DNA of 64,000 nt from Phytoactinopolyspora halotolerans. GTDB taxonomy: Bacteria; Actinomycetota; Actinomycetes; Jiangellales; Jiangellaceae. Each line of letters opens with the position of its first letter. Within the stretch, counting starts at the first letter, position 1. The notes under the pieces were generated by a model. The model made no database searches and was not told the origin of the DNA. It saw nothing but the letters and a program-made list of their open reading frames with translations. A program made the position numbers and the translations under genes. Location: the NCBI RefSeq assembly GCF_010550675.1, contig NZ_JAAGOA010000003.1:124001-188000 (forward strand), in the 5' to 3' direction. Below are positions 36,873 through 63,556 of the stretch, piece after piece.

Positions 36873-36983
36873 GCCCGATGTCCAGGAACATCGCCGGGCC
36901 GCAGAACCGGGCGCACCCTGGGCGAGACTTTGACCACACCGCTGTCGCACGGGTAACCTTGTGAAGGTTTTGCTGCTGACGGG

Positions 36984-37147
36984 TGTCCCGTTAGGTGAGG
37001 CGTCTGACGTGTATGCGTCTGCTGCCCAGAAAAATCGAGAGATTCCAATGGGTTGAACAGGCCGCGACCGAATCAAGGTCCGGCTTAATGCAGACCGGTG
37101 GCCCTCGGGTCGCCTAGACGTGCAGTGCTGAAGCTCTGACGTAGGGA
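36984..37147 (+). ncRNA. M-box (ykoK) magnesium riboswitch
   Basis: The conserved M-box blocks are all visible in order: GTTAGGTGAGGC (36990), GCTGCTGCCCAGAAAAAT (near 37017), GAGAGATTCCAATGGGTTGAA (in part), AATGCAG (37087) and GTGCAGTGCTGAAGCTCTGACG-like closing sequence near 37120-37141. The flanks can pair (TCCC with GGGA). M-boxes sense Mg2+ and control mgtE-type or other Mg transporters; mgtE follows on the same strand. No obvious intrinsic terminator follows it, so control by translation or Rho is possible. Confidence 0.88.
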
Positions 37148-37245
37148 TGCGCTGGCCGGTGTGCCGCGTGCCCGGTCATGGCTTCTCGCCTCTCCGCATG
37201 GAACGTCCGCAGGGAACGATGCGTGCTGCGAAGGAGGTGGGGCGG

Positions 37246-52154: not shown

Positions 52155-53231
52155 TCAGCGCACTTGTTCGCCCGTGACCAGTTCGGCGTTCTCGGCGAGG
52201 AACGCGTTCATCTCGTCCTCGGCCAGCGCGGTCCACAACTCGGTGGCGAGTGCGTCATCGTAGTTGACGATACTCTGCTGGCCCGCCCTGCCAGTGCCGC
52301 GAGTGGGGACAGTAAGAAACGTGACGTCGCCGGCGCGCAGGTCACGCATCGACCATGCCATCCGAGCCATGTCCAGCGCCGACAGGTTTTCGTCCACCCG
52401 CACCGCGTCACCGACGGCGTCGGCGATGTCGGTGACCCGCCCGAAGCTCGAAATGCGGCCATTCGCGATGACCTCGTTCATGAGCGACCGGAGGAAATTC
52501 TGCTGCCGTTTGACGCGGTCGAAGTCGCCGTTCGGCAGCGACTTGCGCACACGAACGTACTCGAGTGCCTGCTCGCCATCGAGGACGTGGCGACCAGGCG
52601 GCAGCTCACTTCCGTCGTTGAGGATGGTCGTCTCGCTGAATTCCATCGGCACTCCGCCGACGGCGTCGGTGAGTCCAGTGAATCCGGTCCAGTCGATCAG
52701 CATGAGATGATCCATCCTCAGATCGGTGAGTTGCTCGACGGTCTGTACGAACAGTGCGGGACCACCGAAAGAGTACGCCGCATTGATCTTGTTCGGTCCG
52801 TGCCCGGGAATATCGATATAGGTGTCCCTGGGAATCGACACCACGTAACCGCGGTCTCTCCCTTCTGGGAAATGCACCATCATGATCGTATCGGTACGGG
52901 CGGCGCCGGGCTGATCGTCGTCGACGACGGTGCCCCCGTCGAGGCCGCCGAGCAAGATCGTGAGGCTGTCCTTAGTGGTCTCCGACGGTCGATCCGTTTC
53001 TGGGATATCGAAGGCATTCGGAATCCGTTCGATGTTCCCGGCTCCGAGGTAACGGTTGACGAGCCACAGACCGCCGCCCGCGACGGCCACCACGATGCCG
53101 AGCAGCATAGCGAGGACGGTGAGCAGGATGATCCGGTTACGGCGCCGCCGGCGTTTCTCTTTGGTAGTGCTGTCGCGCCCGGAGCCGTCGTTATCGCCTG
53201 ACCCCATGAGGTCATCGATCGGCATCGTCAT
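52155..53231 (-). CDS. LytR-CpsA-Psr (LCP) family glycopolymer transferase
   Basis: 358 residues from ATG 53231. A charged cytosolic tail (RRRRRNR) is followed by one membrane helix (about 34-58), then the extracellular LCP domain. Conserved catalytic stretches are RTDTIMMVHF, VVSIPRDTYIDIPGHG, NKINAAYSFGG and YVRVRKSL...DFDRVKRQQ. LCP proteins attach teichoic-acid, arabinogalactan or capsule chains to peptidoglycan. It belongs with the polymer genes on either side of the lasso cluster and is transcribed away from it. Confidence 0.93.
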   Translation of the reverse strand: MTMPIDDLMGSGDNDGSGRDSTTKEKRRRRRNRIILLTVLAMLLGIVVAVAGGGLWLVNRYLGAGNIERIPNAFDIPETDRPSETTKDSLTILLGGLDGGTVVDDDQPGAARTDTIMMVHFPEGRDRGYVVSIPRDTYIDIPGHGPNKINAAYSFGGPALFVQTVEQLTDLRMDHLMLIDWTGFTGLTDAVGGVPMEFSETTILNDGSELPPGRHVLDGEQALEYVRVRKSLPNGDFDRVKRQQNFLRSLMNEVIANGRISSFGRVTDIADAVGDAVRVDENLSALDMARMAWSMRDLRAGDVTFLTVPTRGTGRAGQQSIVNYDDALATELWTALAEDEMNAFLAENAELVTGEQVR

Positions 53232-53452: not shown

Positions 53453-53713
53453 ATGAAGCTTCGGACGGAGAGCGTCAGCTGGCGGGAGATCGACGGCGAG
53501 ATGGTCATTCTTGACCTGGAGTCGTCGACGTACATGAAGACCAACGAGTCCGGATCGACGTTGATACGCATGCTGGTCGAGGAGCGTTCGATGGACGAGT
53601 TGGTACAGAGCCTTGTGGACGCCTATGACGTTCCGGCCGAGGAGGCCAGTGAGGACGCTGGGGCATTCGTGGCGATGCTACGAGAGCGGAACCTGCTGGA
53701 AACCACCGCGTGA
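53453..53713 (+). CDS. lasso peptide leader-binding protein (PqqD/RRE family, B1)
   Basis: 86 residues from ATG 53453 behind AGGGGGGA. It is a stand-alone RiPP recognition element: SVSWREIDGEMVILDLESS, then TYMKTNESGSTLIRML, a helix region ELVQSLVDAYDVP, and the C-terminal helix AFVAMLRERNLL. In lasso pathways B1 binds the YxxPxL part of the leader and delivers the precursor to the peptidase and cyclase. It is the first plus-strand gene of the cluster, directly before the two precursors. Confidence 0.93.
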   Translation: MKLRTESVSWREIDGEMVILDLESSTYMKTNESGSTLIRMLVEERSMDELVQSLVDAYDVPAEEASEDAGAFVAMLRERNLLETTA

Positions 53714-53837
53714 ACACTTCGGCGGACGGATAGCCTGCGCCCGATGCGCCCGTTATGCTGCCCTTCGGTGGGAAATGACAGGACGCTACGGCCGTCGTGC
53801 GTGCCCGCCATCACAAGGGGAAAGGGGGGTCGGTCTC

Positions 53838-53969
53838 GTGACGTATGAGCCGCCCGTGTTGGAAGAGGTCGGGACTGTCCGCGATCTCACTCTCGCACAG
53901 TCCGGACGCGGAGACTCGGACCACATTGCATGGTTCAGGTACACGCCACCCAATACCGGTTTATCGTGA
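53838..53969 (+). CDS. lasso peptide precursor 1
   Basis: 43 residues from GTG 53838, behind an AAAGGGGGG ribosome site. The leader opens MTYEPPVLEEVGTVRDLTL and has the Y3-x-x-P6-x-L8 recognition motif, Gly12 and a Thr at 18. If Thr18 is the conserved penultimate leader residue, the core starts at Ala20 and the ring would be AQSGRGDSD closed on Asp28 (nine residues). The tail contains HIAWFRY and ends TGLS. The C-terminal Ser fits phosphorylation by the cluster's kinase. Leader and length match precursor 2. Confidence 0.9.
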   Translation: MTYEPPVLEEVGTVRDLTLAQSGRGDSDHIAWFRYTPPNTGLS

Positions 53970-54134
53970 CGAACCGGTCGGATCGCGTATGCGGTGCGAC
54001 CGGAAGTCACGGAGTATGATCATTACAGTTCAGGGCTGCGGAGAAGTTTTTGCTCTTGAAACCTTCCGCCAGTGGGCGATCCGGCGGTACGCTTCGGTTC
54101 ACGCGGTGACAGGGCACCGCAGATGTCCTGCGCC

Positions 54135-54157
54135 GTGCGCCCTCGGGTAGGGCGCAC
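54135..54157 (+). promoter_or_regulatory. hairpin just before precursor 2
   Basis: Perfect 9-bp arms GTGCGCCCT and AGGGCGCAC around CGGGT, ending 20 bp before the precursor 2 start. It may protect or attenuate the precursor transcript. Confidence 0.55.
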
Positions 54158-54177
54158 AGGGGAAGGGGGGTGCGGCT

Positions 54178-54309
54178 ATGACTTACCAGCCGCCAGTACT
54201 GGAGGAAGTCGGTTCTGTTCGGGAGCTGACGCTCACCGGAAAGAGCTACGGTCATTCGGATTACTACGTCTGGCGCCGGAAGGATGACGGCGGCGGCGGA
54301 ATGTCCTGA
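54178..54309 (+). CDS. lasso peptide precursor 2
   Basis: 43 residues from ATG 54178 behind GGAAGGGGGG. The leader opens MTYQPPVLEEVGSVRELTL, nearly the same as in precursor 1. By the penultimate-Thr rule the core starts at Thr20 with ring TGKSYGHSD closed on Asp28; if cleavage is one residue later, Gly21 and Asp28 give an eight-residue ring. The tail carries YYVWRRKDD and a Gly run, ending GMS. Gly25, Ser27, Asp28, Trp32, Arg34 and the terminal Ser are shared with precursor 1 while the rest of the core differs, as expected for paired products. Confidence 0.9.
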   Translation: MTYQPPVLEEVGSVRELTLTGKSYGHSDYYVWRRKDDGGGGMS

Positions 54310-54354
54310 TCCACCATTGCAGCTCTTTCTCACTCGAGGAAAAGAGTCGGGCAT

Positions 54355-54384
54355 CGCGGGCCGGCCGTACCGAGCCGGCCCGCG
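54355..54384 (+). terminator. terminator hairpin between precursors and enzymes
   Basis: Perfect 11-bp GC-rich arms CGCGGGCCGGC (54355) and its complement (54374-54384) with an 8-nt loop, 46 bp after precursor 2. A partial terminator here would keep precursor transcripts in excess over the enzymes. Confidence 0.82.
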
Positions 54385-54476
54385 TTAGCCCGTATGTGCC
54401 GGAGCCGACTATTCAGCGCGTGCGGTTCGTGTTCGTGTGCGATAGTCACGGCTGAGTTATTGATGTCGGTGAGAGT

Positions 54477-55709
54477 GTGTGCGCAGTGGAGCCTATTCTG
54501 GAAAACAATTCCGGATTTCATCATCCATCCGCGTTCGAGGTCGCGACGTCATGGGTGCACGGAACGCTCGCTTTCTCACCCATACCTCGAGTAGCGGTGA
54601 CGCCTCGCGATGCGTTTGAACGAGCTATCATGCCGGCGCTGCACAAGCCGCCGTGCTTCGTCGCGTTCTCCGGCGGGCGAGATTCCTCCGCTGTGCTCGC
54701 GGCGGCGACATCGCTGGCGCGGCAGAAAGGGCTGCCCGAGCCGGTGCCTGTCACCGAGATCTACCCGGACGTTGCCGAGGCCGACGAGGAAGCGTGGCAG
54801 CGGCTGGTGATCGAGCACCTCGGCCTGGCCGAGTGGATCCGGATTCGTATCGACGGCGAGAACGACCTCCTCGGCGACGACGCGCGCTCCGGATTGCTCC
54901 GGCATGGTCTTGTCTGGCCGGCGGCGTTCCAGGTGAAGCACCGGATGATGAGCAACGTCTCCGGAGGCTCGTTGCTGACCGGTGAAGGCGGCGACGAGTC
55001 CCTGTCGCCGCGGCGCATCACGCCCCTGATGCTGCTGCTGCGCAAGCGTCGTCGGCGGTCGCGGAAGCTGCTCACGGCATGCGCGTGGTCCATGGCCCCG
55101 GCGCCGGTACGCCGGGCGCGTACCCGGACGGCCGTCGTGCGCGAAGACGACCGGCCATGGCTGACGCCGTCGGCGCGCCGCGACCACGTGCGACGGATCG
55201 CCGACGACGACGCCGCAGAGCCGTTGCGCTGGGACCGTGCAACCTGGTGGGTCGGGCACCAGCGAGCCTCGTCGGTGCTGTTCGACAACTACGCGGCGTT
55301 GGCTGCTGAGTACGACGTGTCGGTGCACCATCCGCTTGCCGATGCGACGTTTCTGGCGTCGCTGGCGCGAACGGGCGGATACTGGGGCTACCCCGGAAGG
55401 ACCGCACTGATGCGTATGCTCTTCTCCGATCTGCTGCCGGACGAGATCCTGCGTCGTACCAGCAAGGCCGGCTTCGACCGTGCGTTCATGGGTGAGACGA
55501 CCCGCGAATTCGCGCGGGTGTGGGACGGTTCGGGTGTGAACGCGGCGCTGGTGGATCCGGACGCGCTCCGTGCATCCTGGCTGTCCGAACGCCCGTCGAC
55601 CATGAGCGGCCTGTTGCTGCAGTCCGCATGGCTGCACGGGCAACGTCTCGGCCCTGCGGCGCCGGACGGCGGCCGGGTAATCGGCGAAGAGGCCGGTGAT
55701 CGGCTATGA
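54477..55709 (+). CDS. lasso cyclase (asparagine-synthetase-like, C protein), N-terminally short
   Basis: 410 residues from GTG 54477 (GTG 54486 also possible). The ATP-binding loop S-G-G-R-D-S is at 65-70, the second loop TGEGGDESLSP near 165-175, and LPDEILRRTSKAGFDRAFMG near the C-terminus. These define the ATP-pyrophosphatase domain that adenylates the ring acid and forms the isopeptide bond. Most lasso cyclases are about 550-620 residues with a glutaminase-like N-terminal domain; here only about 64 residues precede the loop, so that domain is missing. No upstream frame continues it. Stop overlaps the peptidase start. Confidence 0.9.
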   Translation: MCAVEPILENNSGFHHPSAFEVATSWVHGTLAFSPIPRVAVTPRDAFERAIMPALHKPPCFVAFSGGRDSSAVLAAATSLARQKGLPEPVPVTEIYPDVAEADEEAWQRLVIEHLGLAEWIRIRIDGENDLLGDDARSGLLRHGLVWPAAFQVKHRMMSNVSGGSLLTGEGGDESLSPRRITPLMLLLRKRRRRSRKLLTACAWSMAPAPVRRARTRTAVVREDDRPWLTPSARRDHVRRIADDDAAEPLRWDRATWWVGHQRASSVLFDNYAALAAEYDVSVHHPLADATFLASLARTGGYWGYPGRTALMRMLFSDLLPDEILRRTSKAGFDRAFMGETTREFARVWDGSGVNAALVDPDALRASWLSERPSTMSGLLLQSAWLHGQRLGPAAPDGGRVIGEEAGDRL

Positions 55710-56197
55710 GGTCGCCGCTGAGCCTGGCTCGACGGGTACCGGTCCGGGAGATACCTGCCGTGTTGGCCGCCGCGGGTGCGGCGGTCTTCGTCGAGGTGGG
55801 CCTGCGCGTGACGACACTCCCGCGCCTGGCACGTCTGGTCGGCACGCCGCTCCGGCTGGACACTGACGCCGCGATCGCGGAACCGGCGAGCGCGACGGCG
55901 GCGGGACTTCGACTCCCGCCGGCGGCCATCCGACGGCTGCGGGCGGTGCGCCGGGTGATGCGGCACTGGCCGTTCGGTGATACCTGCTTGCGGCGGGCGC
56001 TCGTCTCCGGCCAGCTGTTGCGGGGCTCGCACCCCGAGCTCCGGGTGGGGGTGGCGAAGATCGACGGGAAGATACAGGCGCACGCATGGTTGGAGATCGG
56101 CGGTACCAGCCTCGATCCCGGGGGAGCGGCGGCACATCTGCCGTTGGAGTCGGTTCCCAGGCCCGCCGGCGACGGCCCTTCGGGAGGAGAGCGATGA
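55706..56197 (+). CDS. lasso peptide leader peptidase (transglutaminase-like, B2)
   Basis: 163 residues; ATG overlaps the cyclase stop. The B2 family Cys-His-Asp triad is visible: Cys in GDTCLRRALVSGQLL (about 93), His in QAHAWLEIGG (about 118) and Asp in TSLDPGG (about 128). The N-terminal 85 residues include a hydrophobic stretch (IPAVLAAAGAAVFVEVGL). It removes the leader once B1 presents the precursor. The stop overlaps the kinase start (ATGA). Confidence 0.92.
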   Translation: MRSPLSLARRVPVREIPAVLAAAGAAVFVEVGLRVTTLPRLARLVGTPLRLDTDAAIAEPASATAAGLRLPPAAIRRLRAVRRVMRHWPFGDTCLRRALVSGQLLRGSHPELRVGVAKIDGKIQAHAWLEIGGTSLDPGGAAAHLPLESVPRPAGDGPSGGER

Positions 56198-57165
56198 GCC
56201 CGGACGGCACAGGGAGGCAGGGCACTCAGCTGCTCTACGGGTTGCGCGTCGCGTCGGAGATTCCGCTCTACCAGGACCGGTCCGCCGCCGACGACGGTGA
56301 GCCGGACGTCACCATGCGCATGGGCGAACCGATTCCAGAGCAGCAGGCCCGGCCGCCCGGCCGGGAGCTTGCGCACATGGAGACCGACCGCCCGTACTAC
56401 ACCTTCACGGTCACCGACACCGGGGACTATGCCCTGCGGTTCTACCGGACCTGCGACTTCGTCGTCGACTCAGCGCTGCGGACGGTGACGATGCACGTGG
56501 TGGAAGGCGCGGATCCGGGCGTTGCTGGGGTGCTGGCAGCCGGCGCGGCGCTTTCCTTCGTGCTGACCATGCGTCGGCACACGGTGCTGCATGCCAGCGC
56601 GGTGCAGATCGGCGACGCGGCGCTGGCTTTCGTCGGATACTCCGGCATGGGCAAGTCCACCATGGCGGCGTTGATGTGCGCCGACGGCGCCCGGCTGATC
56701 ACCGATGACGTGCTCCGGGTGGATCCGGACGGAGACGCGATGCGGTGCCGTCTGGGCGCGACCGAGCTGCGGCTGCGCAAGGCCGCCTCCGAGCTGGCGG
56801 AACGGTTCTCCGATCGGCCGCCTGGCCGGGTGACCAGCGACGACCGCGACGCTCTGCGGATGGTGGAGTCCACCGAGGACCGACTGCCCCTGGCCGCCAT
56901 CGTCGTCCCATGGCCGGATCGGGACCGTACCTGGACCGAGCTCGAGCGGCTGTCCACGATGGACGCGCTGGTGACGTTGCTGCGGTTTCCGCGGCTGCTC
57001 GGCTGGACGGATTCGGCGGTGCTGGACCGGCAGTTCAGCGACGTGGGCGACGTCGTCGAACGGGTGCCCGTGTATCGGGCGCAGGTGCCGTGGGGGCCGC
57101 CGTTCGGCGAGGACATCGCGGAGACTGTGGCCGCTGTCGTCGGGTTGAGCCAGGATCTGATCTAG
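56194..57165 (+). CDS. HPr-kinase-like lasso peptide kinase
   Basis: 323 residues from ATG 56194, behind GGGAGGAG and overlapping the peptidase stop. The C-terminal HPrK-like domain has LHASAVQIGDAALAFVG, Walker A GYSGMGKST (148-156) and the Asp pair ITDDVLRVD (171-172). The N-terminal 125 residues are family-specific. In Firmicutes such kinases (paeninodin PadeK, ThcoK) phosphorylate the C-terminal Ser of the lasso precursor. Both precursors here end in Ser. It closes the plus-strand operon. Substrate assignment is inference from context. Confidence 0.85.
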   Translation: MSPDGTGRQGTQLLYGLRVASEIPLYQDRSAADDGEPDVTMRMGEPIPEQQARPPGRELAHMETDRPYYTFTVTDTGDYALRFYRTCDFVVDSALRTVTMHVVEGADPGVAGVLAAGAALSFVLTMRRHTVLHASAVQIGDAALAFVGYSGMGKSTMAALMCADGARLITDDVLRVDPDGDAMRCRLGATELRLRKAASELAERFSDRPPGRVTSDDRDALRMVESTEDRLPLAAIVVPWPDRDRTWTELERLSTMDALVTLLRFPRLLGWTDSAVLDRQFSDVGDVVERVPVYRAQVPWGPPFGEDIAETVAAVVGLSQDLI

Positions 57166-57335
57166 CGAGCGCGATCGTAGGCCACGTTCGCTCGGGCTGG
57201 GCGGTTTACGTTGGCAACTCTCGAGAGCGCACTCGCCAAGCGTTACCCTTCGGTCAACGTTGAGGCGTTGATCTGAATCCTCCCGGGTCGCTTCGAGCCG
57301 GACGACGTCTCCGGCCGAGGGCGCCGATCGGCCGC

Positions 57336-57935
57336 TCAGCGGGTTCGGTCATAGACGAGTGCCAACTCGCCGTACTCGCCGACCGCCTCGCTGACCAGCG
57401 TCCACTGCCCGGTCGGTAGGCCGTCGTCGAACAGGCGCGGCCCGCCCCCGAGGAAGACCGGGAAGATCATGATCGCCAGCCGGTCGACCTGGTCGGCCGC
57501 AAGCAGTGCCTTGATCACGCTAGCGCTGGAGAGCACGAGGATGTCGCCGCCCTCGGTTGCCTTGAGGTCCGCGACCAATTCTGCGGTCGGCTTGTCGACT
57601 ATCGTGGCCCGTTCCCACGGCGCCCGATCGAGAGTGGAGGAGAGCACCACCTTCTCGGTGTCGACGAGCCACTTCGCAAAGCTTTCGTCGCGCGGGTCGG
57701 CACCCTCCATGCCGATGACGGTGGGCCAGAAGCCGAGGAATCCTTCGGCGTTGATACGCCCCAGCAGGGCCGTCGTGGCCGGTTCCCAGAGTCTGGTCAG
57801 GTGGTCCCGGGCGACGTCGCTGACGGCGTACGGCATCACCCAGCTCATGTCCGTCGGGTCGGTCGCGGCGTAGTGGCCGTCGAGCGAAAGGCTCATGTTG
57901 GTGACCACTCTGCGGCCGGCGGTTGGCTTTGTCAT
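57336..57935 (-). CDS. dihydrofolate reductase/RibD C-terminal family protein
   Basis: 199 residues from ATG 57935, overlapping the stop of the preceding regulator gene. It opens RRVVTNMSLSLDGHYA, has LLGRINAEGFLGFWP and the NADP-binding LVLSSASVIKALLAADQVDRL, ending FPVFLGGGPRLF. These proteins are NADPH-dependent reductases of unknown substrate, common in actinobacteria. It forms a two-gene unit with the ArsR-SRPBCC gene and has no evident part in lasso biosynthesis, though it lies inside the cluster. Confidence 0.9.
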   Translation of the reverse strand: MTKPTAGRRVVTNMSLSLDGHYAATDPTDMSWVMPYAVSDVARDHLTRLWEPATTALLGRINAEGFLGFWPTVIGMEGADPRDESFAKWLVDTEKVVLSSTLDRAPWERATIVDKPTAELVADLKATEGGDILVLSSASVIKALLAADQVDRLAIMIFPVFLGGGPRLFDDGLPTGQWTLVSEAVGEYGELALVYDRTR

Positions 57936-58801
57936 GGTGTGCTCCTTGGGTCGGTGTCGTGCTCGGTGTCGGCGGTGCTGGAGGATTCCGCGACGAGGAT
58001 GGCTGCGAGCGTGTCGAGACTCTGGCCGAAGCCGATCTCGATGCCTGCGATGAAGTCCGCGGAGTCGATTGTGCTGTCGGCGATCCGGTAGTGGACGTCG
58101 AGATCCGTCCGGCCGTCGTCGGTGGGTCGGAGGCCGACGTCGACGTGCGCCGTAAAGGCGAGGGTGCCGTCGGGTAGTCGTGGGGAGAGCCGGTAGGCAA
58201 GGTGTTCACCGGGGCGCACCTCGTCGACCACACCCTCCGCGCGCCCGGCGACCGGCTCAGCGTGTTGATCATCCTCGGCGTCGCGGTACTCCAGGACCAC
58301 CCGCCCACCCGGTCGAGCCTCGAATACGAGCTCGGAGACGCGGAGGTCATTGGGTGTCCACCACCGGGCGAGCAACTCGGCGTCAGTGAGGTGGTGCCAG
58401 ACCGGCCCTGGAGGCCCCGCCAGGCGCCGGACGAACTTGAAGGACCGGCCGTCGGCCCACCCAGCCTTCTCCGCGGCGAGCTGCTCTGCCTGAAGGCTTA
58501 GCCCGTAGCGGTCATAGGTCTCCCGTGGGCCGCCCGCCTGGTCCGCGGTATCCGCGAGCCGGGTGAGCGCAGCTGCCAGATCCCGTAAAGGAGCGGACCG
58601 CAGCGCGTAGATGCGGCGCTGGCCAGTGCGTTGGGATGTGACGACGCCTGCGTGCTCGAGTGTCTGCAGGTGCTTAGTCGTCTGTGGCTGGCGCGCCTCG
58701 GCGAGCTGGGCGAGGACGCCGACCGAGCGGGGTCGTTCGGCTAGCAGGCACACGAGCCGCCAGCGGGCCGGGTCGGCCAGCGCGGTGAGGAGTGCGTCCA
58801 T
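57932..58801 (-). CDS. fused ArsR-type regulator and SRPBCC (AHSA1-like) domain protein
   Basis: 289 residues from ATG 58801; the frame reaches a TTG at 58822 without support. Residues 1-95 form a winged helix-turn-helix of ArsR type (DALLTALADPARWRLVCLLA, then QPQTTKHLQTLEHAGVV). Residues 120-275 form an SRPBCC domain (FKFVRRLAGPPGPVWHHLTD, ARWWTPNDL, DVHYRIADSTID). Usually these are two adjacent genes; the fusion suggests a ligand-controlled regulator. The 12-bp palindrome just upstream is a likely autoregulatory site. It is coupled to the reductase gene by ATGA. Confidence 0.9.
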   Translation of the reverse strand: MDALLTALADPARWRLVCLLAERPRSVGVLAQLAEARQPQTTKHLQTLEHAGVVTSQRTGQRRIYALRSAPLRDLAAALTRLADTADQAGGPRETYDRYGLSLQAEQLAAEKAGWADGRSFKFVRRLAGPPGPVWHHLTDAELLARWWTPNDLRVSELVFEARPGGRVVLEYRDAEDDQHAEPVAGRAEGVVDEVRPGEHLAYRLSPRLPDGTLAFTAHVDVGLRPTDDGRTDLDVHYRIADSTIDSADFIAGIEIGFGQSLDTLAAILVAESSSTADTEHDTDPRSTP

Positions 58802-58821
58802 GAGAAGAAGCATTCCCCACA

Positions 58822-58833
58822 ACGAATATTCGT
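58822..58833. promoter_or_regulatory. palindromic operator of the ArsR-SRPBCC unit
   Basis: ACGAATATTCGT is a perfect 12-bp palindrome 20 bp before the regulator start, matching the A/T-centred sites bound by ArsR-type repressors. Confidence 0.65.
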
Positions 58834-58885
58834 GTCAAGGAATATCTTACGAACGGAGGTGGTACAACGCGGCCCAGGCGCACGT

Positions 58886-60775
58886 TCAGGAGTCTGCGGG
58901 CGACAGGTATGCGGCGGCCTGCAGGCGGAACAGCTCGGCGTAGTGCCCGTCCAGATCCATCAGCTGGTCATGGCTGCCGTGTTCGATCACCTCGCCACCG
59001 TGCAGAACATAGATCCGGTCCGCGGTTCGCACGGTGGAGAACCGGTGCGAGATGAACAGTACGGTGCGCCCACCCAGCAGGTCTCGCAGCGACTGGAAGA
59101 GCTCGTGCTCGGCGCGCGCGTCGAGAGACGCCGATGGCTCGTCGAGGATCACGAACGGGGCGTTGCGGAAGAACGCGCGCGCCAGTGCGATCCGCTGCCA
59201 TTGTCCGCCGGACAGGTCCCTGCCACCCTTGAACATCTTGGTCAAAGGCGTGTCCAGTCCGGCGGGTAAGGCAGCGATGGCGTCGTCGATGCCGGCTCTG
59301 CGGGCCGCGGCCAGGATCGCCGCCTCGTCGTCGAGCCGTTCGGCGCGACCCAGGCCGATGTTCTCCCGGGCAGACAGGAAGTAGCGGACGAAGTCCTGGA
59401 AGACGACGGCGATCGACGAGCGCACGCTGGCCCGCGAGTAGGACGCGACGTCGGTGCCGTCCCACCGGATGTTTCCGCCGTCTGGTTCGTAGAGCGCGGC
59501 GAGCAGCTTGGCCAGCGTCGTCTTGCCGGACCCGTTCTCGCCGACCAGCGCGACGACCTCGCCCGCGTTGACGTTGATGGACACGTCGCGCAGGACCGGC
59601 GCCGTGCTGCCTGGATAGGTGAACGTCAGCCCGTCGGCGGTGAGCGAACCGAAGGATGCCGGAGCCGGGCCGCCCGCTTCCGCCTTCTCAGCGGCGGGCT
59701 GCATCGCGACGAAGTCGTCGAGATCGTTCAGGAACAACCCGGATTCGAAGATCTGCTGCGCGCTCTTGAACAGCATGTTCACCTGTTGCGCGAGAATCCG
59801 GATAGCGACGATCGCGGCGCCGGCCTCCGCCAGGCCGACCCGGCCACGGCTGACCAGCCAGACCAGTGCGAGCAACGTGAGCGCCAGGAACGCGGCCGAC
59901 GCGGCGTTCCCGGCGACGGCGAGTTTGGTGCGTCGGCGCAGGTGTACCCGGAGATCATCGACGAACGCGTCGTAGACACGGTCGAACCGCTCGCGCAGGG
60001 CACCGGCCAACCCGTAGGCGCGGACCTCCTTGGCCTCGTCTCGTCCGGTCTGCACTGTGCCGAGGTACTCCCGCATGCGCAGCCGGGGAGCCTGAGTGAC
60101 GGCGAACTCGAACTCCAGCCGGCTGCCCCGGCGCGTGGTGAAGTACAGCGGTACCCCCGCCAGTAGTAACAGCGGGAGCAGCACCGGCTCCAGGCTGATG
60201 ATCGCGGCGGACAGCCCGATGCAGCCCGCCGCGCCGCCGATCAGCCCGATCAGCCCCTGGGTGAGCTGGAACGGGCGGGTGAGCGCATTGGTTTCTACTC
60301 GTTGTAGCCGGTTGTAGAAGTCCGGCGATTCGAACGCGCGGAGGCCGACGGCGCCGGCGACGTCCAGCATGCGCTGCCACGTCGTCCGCATCACCAGCTC
60401 GGACAGCAGACGCTGCTGGTTGGCCTGGACCGCCGCGGATACGGCGACCAGCGCCGTGACCGCGGCCAGCAGCATTACCGGGACGAGCACCCGGCCGACG
60501 TCGGCGTCGTTGTCGGTGACGTCCAGGATCGCCTCGAGGACGGCCTTGACGATCAGGACCTGGGCAGCGATGATCAACGCGCCGAGCAGCTGCAGAACGG
60601 TCGTGATGACAAAGGCGCGCCGGTCGGCGGACCAGGAGAGCTTGACGCTGTCCCGGATCAGTGATCGCAGGCGCCGCACCGACTTGGGTTGCCGCCGCGC
60701 TGAGGCGGCGAGCTCGACATAGTCGTGGTTGGCGGGTGCTTCCACCTCGCCAGCATCGGGCCTCTTCGCCGTCAC
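58886..60775 (-). CDS. ABC exporter (fused permease-ATPase), likely lasso peptide exporter D
   Basis: 629 residues from GTG 60775, which overlaps the nucleotidyltransferase stop (GTGA); the frame stays open far upstream but without support. The N-terminal membrane domain (about 50-335) has six helices, including AFVITTVLQLLGALIIAAQV. The nucleotide-binding domain has Walker A GENGSGKTTLAKLL, signature LSGGQWQRIALARA and Walker B FVILDEPSASLD, with the switch His in ISHRFST. Single-chain exporters of this type secrete lasso peptides and give self-immunity. It is not next to the other lasso genes but the nearest candidate. Confidence 0.85.
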   Translation of the reverse strand: MTAKRPDAGEVEAPANHDYVELAASARRQPKSVRRLRSLIRDSVKLSWSADRRAFVITTVLQLLGALIIAAQVLIVKAVLEAILDVTDNDADVGRVLVPVMLLAAVTALVAVSAAVQANQQRLLSELVMRTTWQRMLDVAGAVGLRAFESPDFYNRLQRVETNALTRPFQLTQGLIGLIGGAAGCIGLSAAIISLEPVLLPLLLLAGVPLYFTTRRGSRLEFEFAVTQAPRLRMREYLGTVQTGRDEAKEVRAYGLAGALRERFDRVYDAFVDDLRVHLRRRTKLAVAGNAASAAFLALTLLALVWLVSRGRVGLAEAGAAIVAIRILAQQVNMLFKSAQQIFESGLFLNDLDDFVAMQPAAEKAEAGGPAPASFGSLTADGLTFTYPGSTAPVLRDVSINVNAGEVVALVGENGSGKTTLAKLLAALYEPDGGNIRWDGTDVASYSRASVRSSIAVVFQDFVRYFLSARENIGLGRAERLDDEAAILAAARRAGIDDAIAALPAGLDTPLTKMFKGGRDLSGGQWQRIALARAFFRNAPFVILDEPSASLDARAEHELFQSLRDLLGGRTVLFISHRFSTVRTADRIYVLHGGEVIEHGSHDQLMDLDGHYAELFRLQAAAYLSPADS

Positions 60776-61941
60776 CGTGTCACGCCCGCGTGAGTCTCTA
60801 CCGCTCGGAGGTACGCCTCGAGCGCCGCGGTGTCCGCGGGCTCGCGGTGAAGGTGGGTAGGCTGGCGGCGGGACGTTGCCAGCCTGTGCGCGACGCCCTG
60901 AATGCCCCGGGTGCCAACGGCGGTCAGAGTTCCACCGCTGCCAGGACGTGAGGATCGGGCCACCAGCCGTGCTAACGATGCTTCTCGCCGCAAGGCAGGG
61001 ACTGGTGCGATCCGGTCTACGGCATTGGTGACCATGCGGAGCCCGGTGGAGATGCCCAGCGCTCCGTCCAGGTTTTCGGGCACAGGCGTGTTCAGTAGGG
61101 CCGACGAGCGGGCCAGCACGATGGCGAGCGCCGTTTGCGCGCCCCAATGGTGGGCGCGGGCGACGACGCTGTCCCAGTCCGCAGTCTGACGCGCGAGCTG
61201 GTCCGCGTCGAGTATGAGAAGCATCCGGTGTGCGCCGGTGAGCGCTGCATGGAGGCATACGTGTGTGAGAGCGTCGGTGTGATCGAGTGCCCACGTCGAC
61301 GAGAGGCCAAGCGGGACAGTGACTCGCCGTTCGAGGATCTCGTATGTCGATACCGAAAACTGTCGGCGGGTAGACGCCATATTGATCATGGACCAGTGCA
61401 GGTCGATCAGAGTTCCGGACGGACTGATGAAATGCATCTCGCCAGGAGTGTCGACGTTGCGGAGCATGTCGCGGAAGTCGGCCACCGTCCATCCGGCGTC
61501 CAGTAGCCGAGTCGCTGCCTGGCGAAGCTCGTGTGGGGATACGAGGATGTCGATGTCGTGGTAGATGCGTAAACCAGGGACGGGGTGTGCATGCTCAGAG
61601 AGGACCGGACCTTTGAACGTGGCCCAGGCGAGCCCGTCGAGAATCTGCCCTATGGCGTCGAGGGTGATCGAGGTGCTGACGTGGTTGGCTATTGCGGTGT
61701 CCCGGTCAATCTTGAACTCGGTGGCGAGGTCCGGCTCCAACTCTCTGAGCAGGACATGCGCCAGCGGCCCGACGCGGTGATGGCGGGCCGTCTCGACGAA
61801 CAGAGCACGGGTGGCCTCATGCGCTGGAAGATCTGGCACGGTGTTCCGGCATACGTCGACAATTGCCGCGGGCACGGCGCGACGCGGCCGGGTCTCCCGT
61901 ATGCCATGTCCTTTGGCCGAACCACCCCTGGAACCGACCAT
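60772..61941 (-). CDS. nucleotidyltransferase-fold protein associated with lasso cluster
   Basis: 389 residues from ATG 61941 with GGGGGA just before. It belongs to the large uncharacterised NTase family often found in RiPP clusters: WATFKGPVLSEHAHPVPGLR, then the metal motif D-I-D (129-131) in HDIDILVSPHEL, and later LIDLHWSMIN. The C-terminal half is helical and Arg-rich. Genes of this type accompany kinase-containing lasso clusters in Firmicutes, which supports a tailoring or resistance role. Stop overlaps the exporter start; the polymerase gene lies 49 bp upstream. Confidence 0.8.
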   Translation of the reverse strand: MVGSRGGSAKGHGIRETRPRRAVPAAIVDVCRNTVPDLPAHEATRALFVETARHHRVGPLAHVLLRELEPDLATEFKIDRDTAIANHVSTSITLDAIGQILDGLAWATFKGPVLSEHAHPVPGLRIYHDIDILVSPHELRQAATRLLDAGWTVADFRDMLRNVDTPGEMHFISPSGTLIDLHWSMINMASTRRQFSVSTYEILERRVTVPLGLSSTWALDHTDALTHVCLHAALTGAHRMLLILDADQLARQTADWDSVVARAHHWGAQTALAIVLARSSALLNTPVPENLDGALGISTGLRMVTNAVDRIAPVPALRREASLARLVARSSRPGSGGTLTAVGTRGIQGVAHRLATSRRQPTHLHREPADTAALEAYLRAVETHAGVTR

Positions 61942-61990: not shown

Positions 61991-63556
61991 TCATCCTAGA
62001 CCGTGTTTGCATCCCGTGGACAGTGACTCGCTCTTGGACCGTCTGCCTGCGCCGCTCCAGTTCGCCATCCAAGGTGTGGCGACAAGGCGGTCTCCAAGTG
62101 CCGCAACCTGTAACGGCCGTCGCCCGCCACCGCCTCCGTCGATGCGCCACAGCGCCCCGATGGCGCCGATGACTACAAAGAGCACCCCGACGAACGTCGC
62201 GAAAGAGAAGGAGTCGAATGTGCCGCTCGCAAGTAAGCTGACCGGCAAGACGACGGCGAGTGCCTGAGCAAGGTGACGAGTCTCCTGATCCGCTCCCCGC
62301 AATCGAAGGCTTCGCGCGACGAAATACGGCGCCAGGAAGAAGACGACAAGGGCGGCCAGACCGACCGCACCACCTTCGAGCAGTGTCATATAGAGCTGGT
62401 TATCCAGAAGAATGTAACGTTCGGGCATGAACGTGCCGGCGCCCCTGCCGATCCACGGGCGCTCGGCCCAGAGCTCAAACACGTAATCGGTCCGTGCGAT
62501 CCGATCTTGGACGCTTGGATCGTTCTCGACGTTGGCGAAGAGGGACTTGATGGTTCCTAACACTCCCCGCTGGACGACGTGGAACATTGCGATGGCGCAA
62601 GCTGCGATGACGAGCGCGTTGTACCGCTGCCGCCATGGCCACACACTGAGCATCAGCACCAGCGCCAACCCCACCGCGAGCGTCGCGGAACGGGAGATGG
62701 AGAAGGGAATGCCGACCGCGATGACGGCGACGGCCAGCCAGCGCCACACTCGCTGTCGCCGGACCGTGGCGAACAGCGCGTAGTGCAAGGCGAGCGGCAG
62801 CACCATTGCTAGGACTACGCCGAACTCGATGTAGTGCGTTGCTGTCGAGGCGACCCGCGGGAATCCAGGTCCTCCGCGCTCAGCCACACCGATGAGCGCC
62901 GCGTTGAGCCGGAGCCCAGGAATTCTCACATACTGGGTGATGTCCACCACCTGGGTGAACTGCAGTCCGCCGATCACCCCCATGACGGCCGCGAAGCCGA
63001 CCAACGCTCTGAGTAAGCGGTCCAGCTCGTGGCGTGTGCGCATCCCGTCGGCGGTGGCTAGGGCGACGCCAGCCATCGCAAACGTGAAGATGATCCACCG
63101 ATCGGCGCTGCTCGCCTCAATCTCTGGTAGTCCTCGATCGATTCCGACGGCATAGCCGAACAGCTGGAACGCTACGTATCCGCCGATGATCCAGCGGACA
63201 GGCTGTGCGCCGTCCGGGAGTCCTCGTCGAGTCAGGAATGCGAGCGTCCAGAGGAAGAAGAGAAGCAACCCGATCGCGACAGATGGCCGTCCGATGGCGC
63301 CCATACCACCGATGACGAGGCGCGCAGGGATGAGGAACTGCAGTGCCAGAAATATGACCAGCAAAATGAGGGCGGTCAGCGGACGTGATCCGATGATCAT
63401 GGGCTGCCAGTTATCGGAGCGCGTGGTCTTCGCCTTAGGCAACGATCGAAGGAGACTTGGCTGCCAGGCCGAGTAGCGGCCTTCGATCACGTGCGTGGTT
63501 GTATACCGTCCCCGATCGATTGTTTTGGCCAACAGGCTCGACCGCAACCCCATCAT
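61991..63556 (-). CDS. O-antigen ligase/polymerase-family membrane protein
   Basis: 521 residues from ATG 63556, overlapping the stop of the previous gene (ATGA). After a soluble N-terminal 55 residues it has about 11-12 membrane segments, starting LTALILLVIFLALQFLIP. The Wzy_C core lies at about 255-400, with FSISRSATLAVGLALVLML and the loop RTDYVFELWAERPWIGRGAG, whose GxGxG-like turn is typical. It probably polymerises or ligates exopolysaccharide repeat units. Together with the preceding chain-length-like gene it marks the start of an exopolysaccharide operon running in from the right. Confidence 0.9.
   Translation of the reverse strand: MMGLRSSLLAKTIDRGRYTTTHVIEGRYSAWQPSLLRSLPKAKTTRSDNWQPMIIGSRPLTALILLVIFLALQFLIPARLVIGGMGAIGRPSVAIGLLLFFLWTLAFLTRRGLPDGAQPVRWIIGGYVAFQLFGYAVGIDRGLPEIEASSADRWIIFTFAMAGVALATADGMRTRHELDRLLRALVGFAAVMGVIGGLQFTQVVDITQYVRIPGLRLNAALIGVAERGGPGFPRVASTATHYIEFGVVLAMVLPLALHYALFATVRRQRVWRWLAVAVIAVGIPFSISRSATLAVGLALVLMLSVWPWRQRYNALVIAACAIAMFHVVQRGVLGTIKSLFANVENDPSVQDRIARTDYVFELWAERPWIGRGAGTFMPERYILLDNQLYMTLLEGGAVGLAALVVFFLAPYFVARSLRLRGADQETRHLAQALAVVLPVSLLASGTFDSFSFATFVGVLFVVIGAIGALWRIDGGGGGRRPLQVAALGDRLVATPWMANWSGAGRRSKSESLSTGCKHGLG

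Follow-up and report, generated by a model that had tools for sequence, protein, structure and literature searches.

We analysed a stretch of 64,000 nucleotides (nt) of contig NZ_JAAGOA010000003.1 (G000:C23, positions 124001-188000) from Phytoactinopolyspora, order Jiangellales, hereafter called the window, within which gene positions are counted, and describe a lasso peptide gene cluster in it that includes a kinase gene. A plus-strand run encodes a leader-binding protein (B1), two precursors (A1 and A2), a compact cyclase (C), a leader peptidase (B2) and an HprK-like kinase (K), and an ABC exporter and a nucleotidyltransferase-fold protein (NTase) are encoded on the other strand, Table 1. 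The initial annotation had named these genes, and all of them lie in the places and frames it gave them, with Pfam and NCBIfam searches backing the calls. Its description of the plus-strand run as tightly coupled holds for C-B2-K, where consecutive genes overlap by 4 nt, as the ABC and NTase genes also do, but not for B1-A1-A2-C, where the gaps are 124, 208 and 167 nt. All parts of a lasso cluster are present, namely B1 with its RRE domain, B2 and an asparagine-synthetase-like macrolactam synthetase, and both precursors have a YxxPxL leader, Thr at position -2 and Asp at core position 9. The locus likewise combines the two marks of a kinase-type cluster, an operon-borne HprK-like kinase whose catalytic residues are intact and a C-terminal Ser on the precursor, and, as expected of a pseudomycoidin-like one, has an NTase-fold protein with a DxD motif beside the kinase cluster. 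B1 scores 52.3 bits against the NCBIfam model lasso_PqqD_Strm, under its cut-off of 70, and is missed by the stricter lasso PqqD models. We read the locus as an actinobacterial kinase-type lasso cluster that would make two C-terminally phosphorylated peptides, a reading to which, judging from sequence comparison, we give a probability of about 0.78.

Table 1. Genes of the lasso cluster and of its immediate surroundings, with positions in the window (aa, amino acids)
Feature	Position	Strand	Support or remark
B1, PqqD-like leader-binding protein (RRE), 86 aa	53453-53713	+	Pfam PqqD 1.2e-16
A1, precursor, 43 aa	53838-53969	+	lasso_leader_L3 3e-8, 33.3 bits (cut-off 19)
A2, precursor, 43 aa	54178-54309	+	lasso_leader_L3 6.3e-8, 32.2 bits (cut-off 19)
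C, compact lasso-type cyclase, 410 aa	54477-55709	+	Pfam Asn_synthase (PF00733) 1.9e-12, over cut-off
B2, leader peptidase (transglutaminase-like fold), 163 aa	55706-56197	+	lasso_biosyn_B2 57.2 bits (cut-off 33); Pfam Transglut_core3
K, HprK-like putative precursor kinase, 323 aa	56194-57165	+	Pfam Hpr_kinase_C 2.1e-5, under cut-off
D, ABC exporter, 629 aa	58886-60775	-	ABC_tran 8.3e-34
N, PF14907 nucleotidyltransferase-fold protein (NTase), 389 aa, D129-x-D131	60772-61941	-	5.9e-34
RibD-like gene	57336-57935	-	between kinase and exporter
ArsR/AHSA1-like gene	57932-58822	-	between kinase and exporter
LytR-CpsA-Psr (LCP-type) gene	52155-53231		flanks cluster
Wzy_C O-antigen-ligase gene	61991-63556		flanks cluster; followed by pyruvyltransferase, glycosyltransferase and flippase genes

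Of 22 Jiangellales genomes, 12, the window's included, have the kinase, at 63-100% identity, and the gene order B1-A(-A)-C-B2-K recurs in these 12, which argues that the arrangement is not due to chance. The kinase-bearing genomes contain 22 precursors, 19 of them distinct (one, in locus L030, with a TTG start). In an alignment of the 19, the positions kept in the leader include Y3, P6, G12 and T18, the Thr at -2 is invariant, and the only invariant residues of the core are G6, D9 and the C-terminal Ser. The conservation of T(-2) and D9 marks the likely start of the core and a nine-residue ring, and with the cleavage site so placed the predicted cores are AQSGRGDSDHIAWFRYTPPNTGLS for A1 (ring A1-D9) and TGKSYGHSDYYVWRRKDDGGGGMS for A2 (ring T1-D9), both following T(-2) and ending in Ser. 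The usual Gly is not used as the first core residue, which is Ala in all but two of the 19 (one Thr and one Ser), and an aromatic tail is apparent from the Trp that 18 of them have at core position 13.

That both window precursors end in Ser, as first reported, fits a wider pattern. All 22 Jiangellales precursors do so, and so do all 28 precursors (25 distinct) encoded beside the same kinase clade outside the order; in six of these 28 (L056, L059, L060, L061, L064 and L068) the C-terminal Ser is the sole Ser or Thr of the predicted core. Within loci L049-L073 we set aside 11 open reading frames (ORFs) that matched a loose pattern but lay within or across other genes or lacked the G-to-T spacing of the leader, 10 of them not ending in Ser; L070 yielded no precursor in the first listing, and its Ser-ending precursor was entered as L225, on the same contig. 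As a control, we searched 345 genomes of the class with a lasso leader model and, from the 40 places with the highest scores that lay outside the family, used 39, skipping one where the leader match fell within a 1396-residue frame. Where the kinase was absent, none of 36 precursors ended in Ser, and where it was present all three did, each together with a compact cyclase (L220, L222 and L225; Fisher p 1.1e-4). Two of these three loci share one genome, and all three are counted among the 28; six of the 39 stretches, five of them kinase-less, span only 4.4-6.2 kb at contig ends, which makes kinase absence less sure there. Since the C-terminal Ser is invariant beside the kinase clade, occurs in 0 of 36 kinase-less precursors and has no competing core Ser or Thr in six cases, we consider its phosphorylation by K well supported as a prediction from sequence.

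The kinase itself has its catalytic residues intact, in that H133, G148, G151, G153, K154, S155, D171 and D172 are invariant in all 32 aligned kinases and are spaced identically to the H148-G163-G166-G168-K169-S170-D186-D187 motif of BsfK (PMC10368454). An AlphaFold model of K (predicted local distance difference test score, pLDDT, 93.8) finds phosphoenolpyruvate carboxykinase as its best match in the PDB (1.1e-8, template modelling score about 0.5) and HPr kinase next (7.3e-6, score about 0.3), as would fit a member of the HprK/PEPCK superfamily. Of the 79 kinase matches, 70 entered a tree (short ones and a duplicate having been dropped), in which 38 of the 39 kinases from lasso loci form one group with support 89/86. 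The smallest set with strong support (100/95) contains all 39 together with those of L146, a compact-cyclase locus, and of L135, L080 and L161, where precursor-like ORFs are of doubtful status. The tree was built with PadeK, ThcoK, SyanK and classical HPr kinases left outside it; within that frame, K groups with the lasso-locus kinases and is not closer to unrelated HPrK homologues, the outcome that had been proposed as a refutation.

Precursor-like ORFs beside kinases outside the main group have various ends: Gly (second cluster of L146), Pro (L136), Ala (L075), Val (L135 and L161), Ser (L080) and Thr (L247, Halopiger). This variety suggests that target choice follows the kinase clade, although the cases are few and uncertain. 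L146 (G139:C1) holds two compact cyclases and two kinases within 16 kb, and its Ser-ending precursor adjoins the kinase that lies near the main group. A precursor-like ORF that ends in Ser also occurs on a Sulfitobacter plasmid, at a locus that carries a kinase-like gene.

A scan with the kinase alignment over 84,980 species, each represented by one genome, returned 35 loci, of which 32 are in Actinomycetota, including 14 named genera, and three, weaker, are in Terriglobus, a Pseudomonas and an Acidobacteriaceae metagenome-assembled genome; the scan was built on two short peptide patterns and so finds close relatives and is no census. In the genome-mining check of the kinase that had been suggested, all 25 kinase-found loci outside the order (L049-L073) have C and B2, and 24 have B1. 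In an even sample of 396 genomes of the phylum, a kinase match at 1e-10 was present in 14 and a B2 match at 1e-3 in 51, and many of the weaker kinase matches belong to other clades of the tree; looking by motif for cyclases and precursors near the phylum-wide B2 matches proved too strict and came back mostly empty. Two reviews name Firmicutes and Proteobacteria as the sources of phosphorylated lasso peptides (PMC8498205, PMC9266682), and a further study adds Bradymonadales and, in silico, Acidobacteriaceae and Sphingomonadales (PMC10368454). The initial annotation associated kinase-bearing lasso clusters mainly with Firmicutes and Proteobacteria, but at least 14 named actinobacterial genera carry them. 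We found no report of such a cluster in Actinomycetota in the literature searched, which covered few subscription papers, and priority can therefore not be claimed. Further afield, the Halopiger xanaduensis plasmid pHALXA01 (L247) carries a haloarchaeal locus of lasso type, whose annotations include PqqD, B2, a full-length asparagine synthase and a nucleotidyltransferase, with an HprK-like match in a hypothetical protein and a precursor-like ORF (L247:6602-6763, minus strand) ending in Thr. In L135 and L153, from other actinobacterial groups, genes for PqqD-like, B2 and kinase proteins lie beside large, apparently secreted proteins, with no recognised cyclase.

The feature that the initial annotation missed is the cyclase. 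The SGGRDSS motif of C begins at residue 65, with no N-terminal glutaminase-like region, so that C lacks the canonical region of about 200 residues before the PP-loop. We rejected the explanation that the start had been mis-called or the gene truncated locally, since the gap between A2 and C is only 167 nt and all 12 Jiangellales genomes, with start codons chosen by us, give 391-410 aa (391-405 in the 11 other than the window's). Among 29 relatives of C, Pfam finds Asn_synthase and in none a GATase match, and SGGRDSS is present in 29 of 29, preceded by 56-80 residues. We took the length before the PP-loop as the marker of the N-terminal region because only four of 19 full-length cyclases match GATase_7. 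By this marker, the kinase-less controls have 224-362 residues before the PP-loop (SGG[LMW]DS), counted from the first start codon at the 16 loci with a recognised cyclase; the other 20 of the 36 gave no recognisable cyclase ORF bearing the motif. The compact cyclases form one side of a branch with support 100/100, found in 100% of 200 bootstrap trees, on a long stem of 1.31 changes per column. The alignment used 29 of 40 compact cyclases, omitting seven near copies, three with doubtful starts and one split over two frames (L220); the 40 do not include the two of L146 or a broken copy in L176. The AlphaFold model of C (pLDDT 92.2) shows a complete synthetase domain with SGGxDS and GGDE intact, and its closest PDB entries are TsnB9, asparagine synthetases and beta-lactam synthetase.

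The compact cyclases are thus a clade of their own that travels with this kinase. The pairing is not strict, the exceptions being the second cyclase of L146 and the copy in L176 (G175:C16), where the gene is broken by a stop codon in a genome without a B2 match. We also rejected the idea that a compact cyclase is a trait of all kinase clusters, as the kinase loci of Sulfitobacter, Halopiger and Tistrella have full-length cyclases of 650, 646 and 630 residues. A plasmid search with the cyclase gave no match at 1e-3. McjC, with about 513 residues, is longer than the compact cyclases. According to a 2016 review, McjC likewise lacks the glutamine-hydrolysing N-terminal domain (PMC4979651), and in the literature searched this review gave the only mention found of a truncated or domain-less lasso cyclase.

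The NTase follows the kinase closely at the level of genomes, a homologue being present in 13 of the 22 Jiangellales genomes, in 12 of 12 with the kinase and in one of 10 without it (Fisher p 2e-5). In the window and four relatives, no more than about 9 kb separates it from the kinase. Across 38 kinase loci, 24 have a homologue within the stretch retrieved, in some cases a distant one (27-33% identity), and the DxD motif is kept in all 24. In the pseudomycoidin system, PsmN adds a hexose to the phosphate (PMC8498205, PMC9266682), and by analogy the NTase may do the same here; because the NTase is present in all 12 kinase-bearing genomes of the order, a phosphoglycoside is possible, and a phosphoglycosylated product would be plausible. 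The proposal that the products are phosphorylated lasso peptides stands as far as the C-terminal Ser passes the sequence tests as the target, but with an NTase present the form heavier by 80 Da may represent no more than an intermediate. A second pair of PqqD and HprK-C genes lies some 34 kb from the lasso kinase, at about 213-216 kb of the contig (L041:7008-9796), beside a glycosyltransferase family 2 (GT2) gene and a gene whose small exported product has a weak LPXTG-anchor match, in what looks like a sugar-modification region. A weak kinase match occurs in 12 of the 22 Jiangellales genomes, 11 of them with the lasso kinase, a PqqD neighbour being known for the window's genome. The second pair is possibly a separate phosphorylating system and, given this co-occurrence, the NTase could also serve it.

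From the gene content and order, the conservation and co-occurrence, the catalytic residues and the predicted folds, we infer a sequence of chemical steps. B1 would bind the YxxPxL leader of both precursors and present them to K, which would phosphorylate the hydroxyl of C-terminal Ser43 on the linear precursor. B2 would next remove the leader by cleaving behind T(-2)-L(-1). The compact cyclase would then adenylate Asp9 and link it to the N-terminal Ala1 or Thr1, which would yield two peptides of 24 residues, each with a nine-residue ring and presumably threaded. The NTase-fold protein would probably modify the phosphate further, with a hexose if it resembles PsmN, and the ABC protein would export the product. 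For core 1, the calculated monoisotopic mass is 2614.23 as the lactam, 2694.20 when phosphorylated and 2856.25 when a hexose is added to the phosphate, and for core 2 the corresponding values are 2660.18, 2740.15 and 2902.20.

Several observations weigh against two C-terminally phosphorylated lasso peptides as the products, and they are best considered together with the alternatives to which some of them point. Both window cores contain Ser or Thr residues other than the last one, including Ser in the ring, core position 8 is Ser in 16 of the 19 Jiangellales precursors, and BsfK, also a lasso precursor kinase, acts on Ser3 (PMC10368454); K might likewise phosphorylate a ring Ser, and the outlying kinases beside ORFs that do not end in Ser (second cluster of L146, L136, L075, L135 and L161) could be cited in favour. 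We nevertheless regard a ring target as very unlikely, because no ring Ser or Thr is invariant in the 19 precursors whereas the C-terminal Ser is, because the six precursors named above offer no other core Ser or Thr, and because BsfA, the substrate of BsfK, itself ends in Asp (PMC10368454). The association of the terminal Ser with the kinase and the compact cyclase is also imperfect at two places. The second compact cyclase of L146 lies beside a distant kinase and a Gly-ending precursor, and on the window's own contig a leader-like ORF ends in Ser (GGFS) with this kinase not nearby (L246, about 237.6-239.6 kb; weak leader match, E 0.02), divergent from a gene for a 639-aa protein with GATase_7 and Asn_synthase domains. 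Neither B1 nor B2 was found among the six L246 proteins scanned; ABC-2 transporter and histidine kinase genes are also present there. As to a hexose on the phosphate, the NTase lies outside the fetched stretch in seven of the 12 Jiangellales kinase loci, namely L034-L039 and L032 (a short contig), where it is found about 18-37 kb from the kinase or on a different contig.

The cyclase adds a different kind of doubt: because C lacks the N-terminal region of ordinary lasso cyclases, threading can be expected with less confidence than in a standard cluster. With about 200 residues missing and a separate, long-stemmed clade outside the full-length cyclases, the enzyme might thread nothing, and the product would then be an unthreaded macrolactam or a linear phosphorylated peptide. 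We consider such an outcome improbable given that B2 and the leader score over the cut-offs of lasso models, that T(-2), D9 and the aromatic tail are conserved, and that the high-confidence model has an intact synthetase core. Finally, K falls under the curated HprK cut-offs (TIGR00679, 20.8 against 240 bits; PF07475, 24.6 against 33.3), on which ground we rejected K as an HPr kinase proper. The distant HprK relationship, together with the second PqqD-HprK pair beside a glycosyltransferase on the same contig, could still be taken to mean that K is an HPr-type regulatory kinase for another protein that sits in the cluster incidentally. This is scarcely credible for a gene that overlaps B2 by 4 nt, has C and B2 beside it at every one of the 25 loci outside the order, with B1 at 24, and covaries with the C-terminal Ser of the precursor. 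C-terminal phosphorylation of both precursors remains the reading that we prefer.

Compared with known systems, the locus resembles the paeninodin type (PadeK and ThcoK, and the proteobacterial SyanK, likened here by description only) in its split B1 and B2, an HprK-like kinase in the operon, a Ser-ending precursor and an ABC exporter; PadeK, ThcoK, SyanK and PsmK act on the C-terminal Ser (PMC8498205, PMC9266682). It differs in order, B1-A1-A2-C-B2-K as against C-A-K-B1-B2-D in Firmicutes and A-B1-B2-C-K-D in Proteobacteria (PMC5067487), in its compact cyclase and in its actinomycete host. With pseudomycoidin (PsmK and PsmN, also likened by description only) it shares a kinase, an NTase-fold gene and a predicted phosphate, perhaps with a hexose, but here, in another phylum, the NTase and exporter genes are encoded on the other strand and, in several of the relatives, at a distance of many kb. 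The BsfK cluster of Bradymonas sediminis is alike in the spacing of the catalytic residues and the B1 partner; there, leader position -2 is Ile and the substrate residue lies in the ring (PMC10368454), whereas here -2 is Thr and the invariant candidate is the C-terminal Ser. Standard actinobacterial clusters (A-C-B1-B2-D) share the leader motif, B1, B2 and the ABC exporter, yet among the 39 class-wide loci, 36 have no kinase, and these 36 lack the C-terminal Ser and, at the 16 loci with a recognised cyclase, have the long region before the PP-loop.

If the preferred reading is true, phosphorylated lasso peptides reach a phylum from which we found no report in the literature searched, and 44 distinct precursors become available for work on the kinase. 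The link between kinase clade and C-terminal Ser would then serve as a sequence rule that predicts which lasso peptides carry a phosphate, and where. We see the compact cyclase clade travelling with the kinase as the most novel part; it offers a natural test of whether lasso cyclases need the N-terminal region, and a smaller enzyme for engineering. Next in novelty comes a possible tie to surface polysaccharides, which in some loci provides a clue to the role of modified lasso peptides, a role that one review describes as 'still to be unraveled' (PMC9266682).

This tie starts from the genes on either side of the cluster, Table 1, although the exact neighbours of the window are rarely shared: of 36 further loci with the kinase, four (L029, L030, L051 and L063) showed the Wzy gene, and the LCP gene turned up at none. 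Counted more broadly, with small profiles built mostly from the window's region, a GT2, flippase or Wzy gene is present at 17 of 39 loci with a kinase (16 of 38 once a duplicate contig is removed) and at none of 36 controls, and in comparable 10-kb stretches at six of 20 against 0 of 36 (p 1e-3). The profile search found no such gene in seven of the 11 other Jiangellales loci. A Pfam tally gives Glycos_transf_2 in 12 of 89 flanking proteins, the family being outside the 25 most frequent among 88 control proteins; it covers 11 of 18 prepared loci and, for the control, 88 of 150 listed proteins, and leans towards an association because the seven omitted loci show no polysaccharide match, so that the profile count is the fairer one. 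As stretch lengths differ and some loci are closely related, we take the association as a lead, not as proof. In a rumen survey, Butyrivibrio has glycosyltransferase 2 and EpsH genes beside kinase-bearing lasso genes (PMC7533575). One could speculate that this is a distinct lasso branch, in which a minimal cyclase, naturally without the N-terminal domain, rings a C-terminally phosphorylated precursor, the NTase turns the phosphate into a phosphodiester-linked sugar, and the finished peptide works with the polysaccharide locus at the cell surface and not as a diffusible antibiotic; we offer this combination tentatively and would not bet on it as a whole.

Between kinase and exporter, the RibD-like and ArsR/AHSA1-like genes are probably a local insertion unrelated to the pathway, as the pair gave no tblastn match at 1e-4 in 11 related loci. 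A promoter scan detected none. Elsewhere in the window, an M-box (magnesium) riboswitch was recognised at positions 36980-37153 with 96.9 bits.

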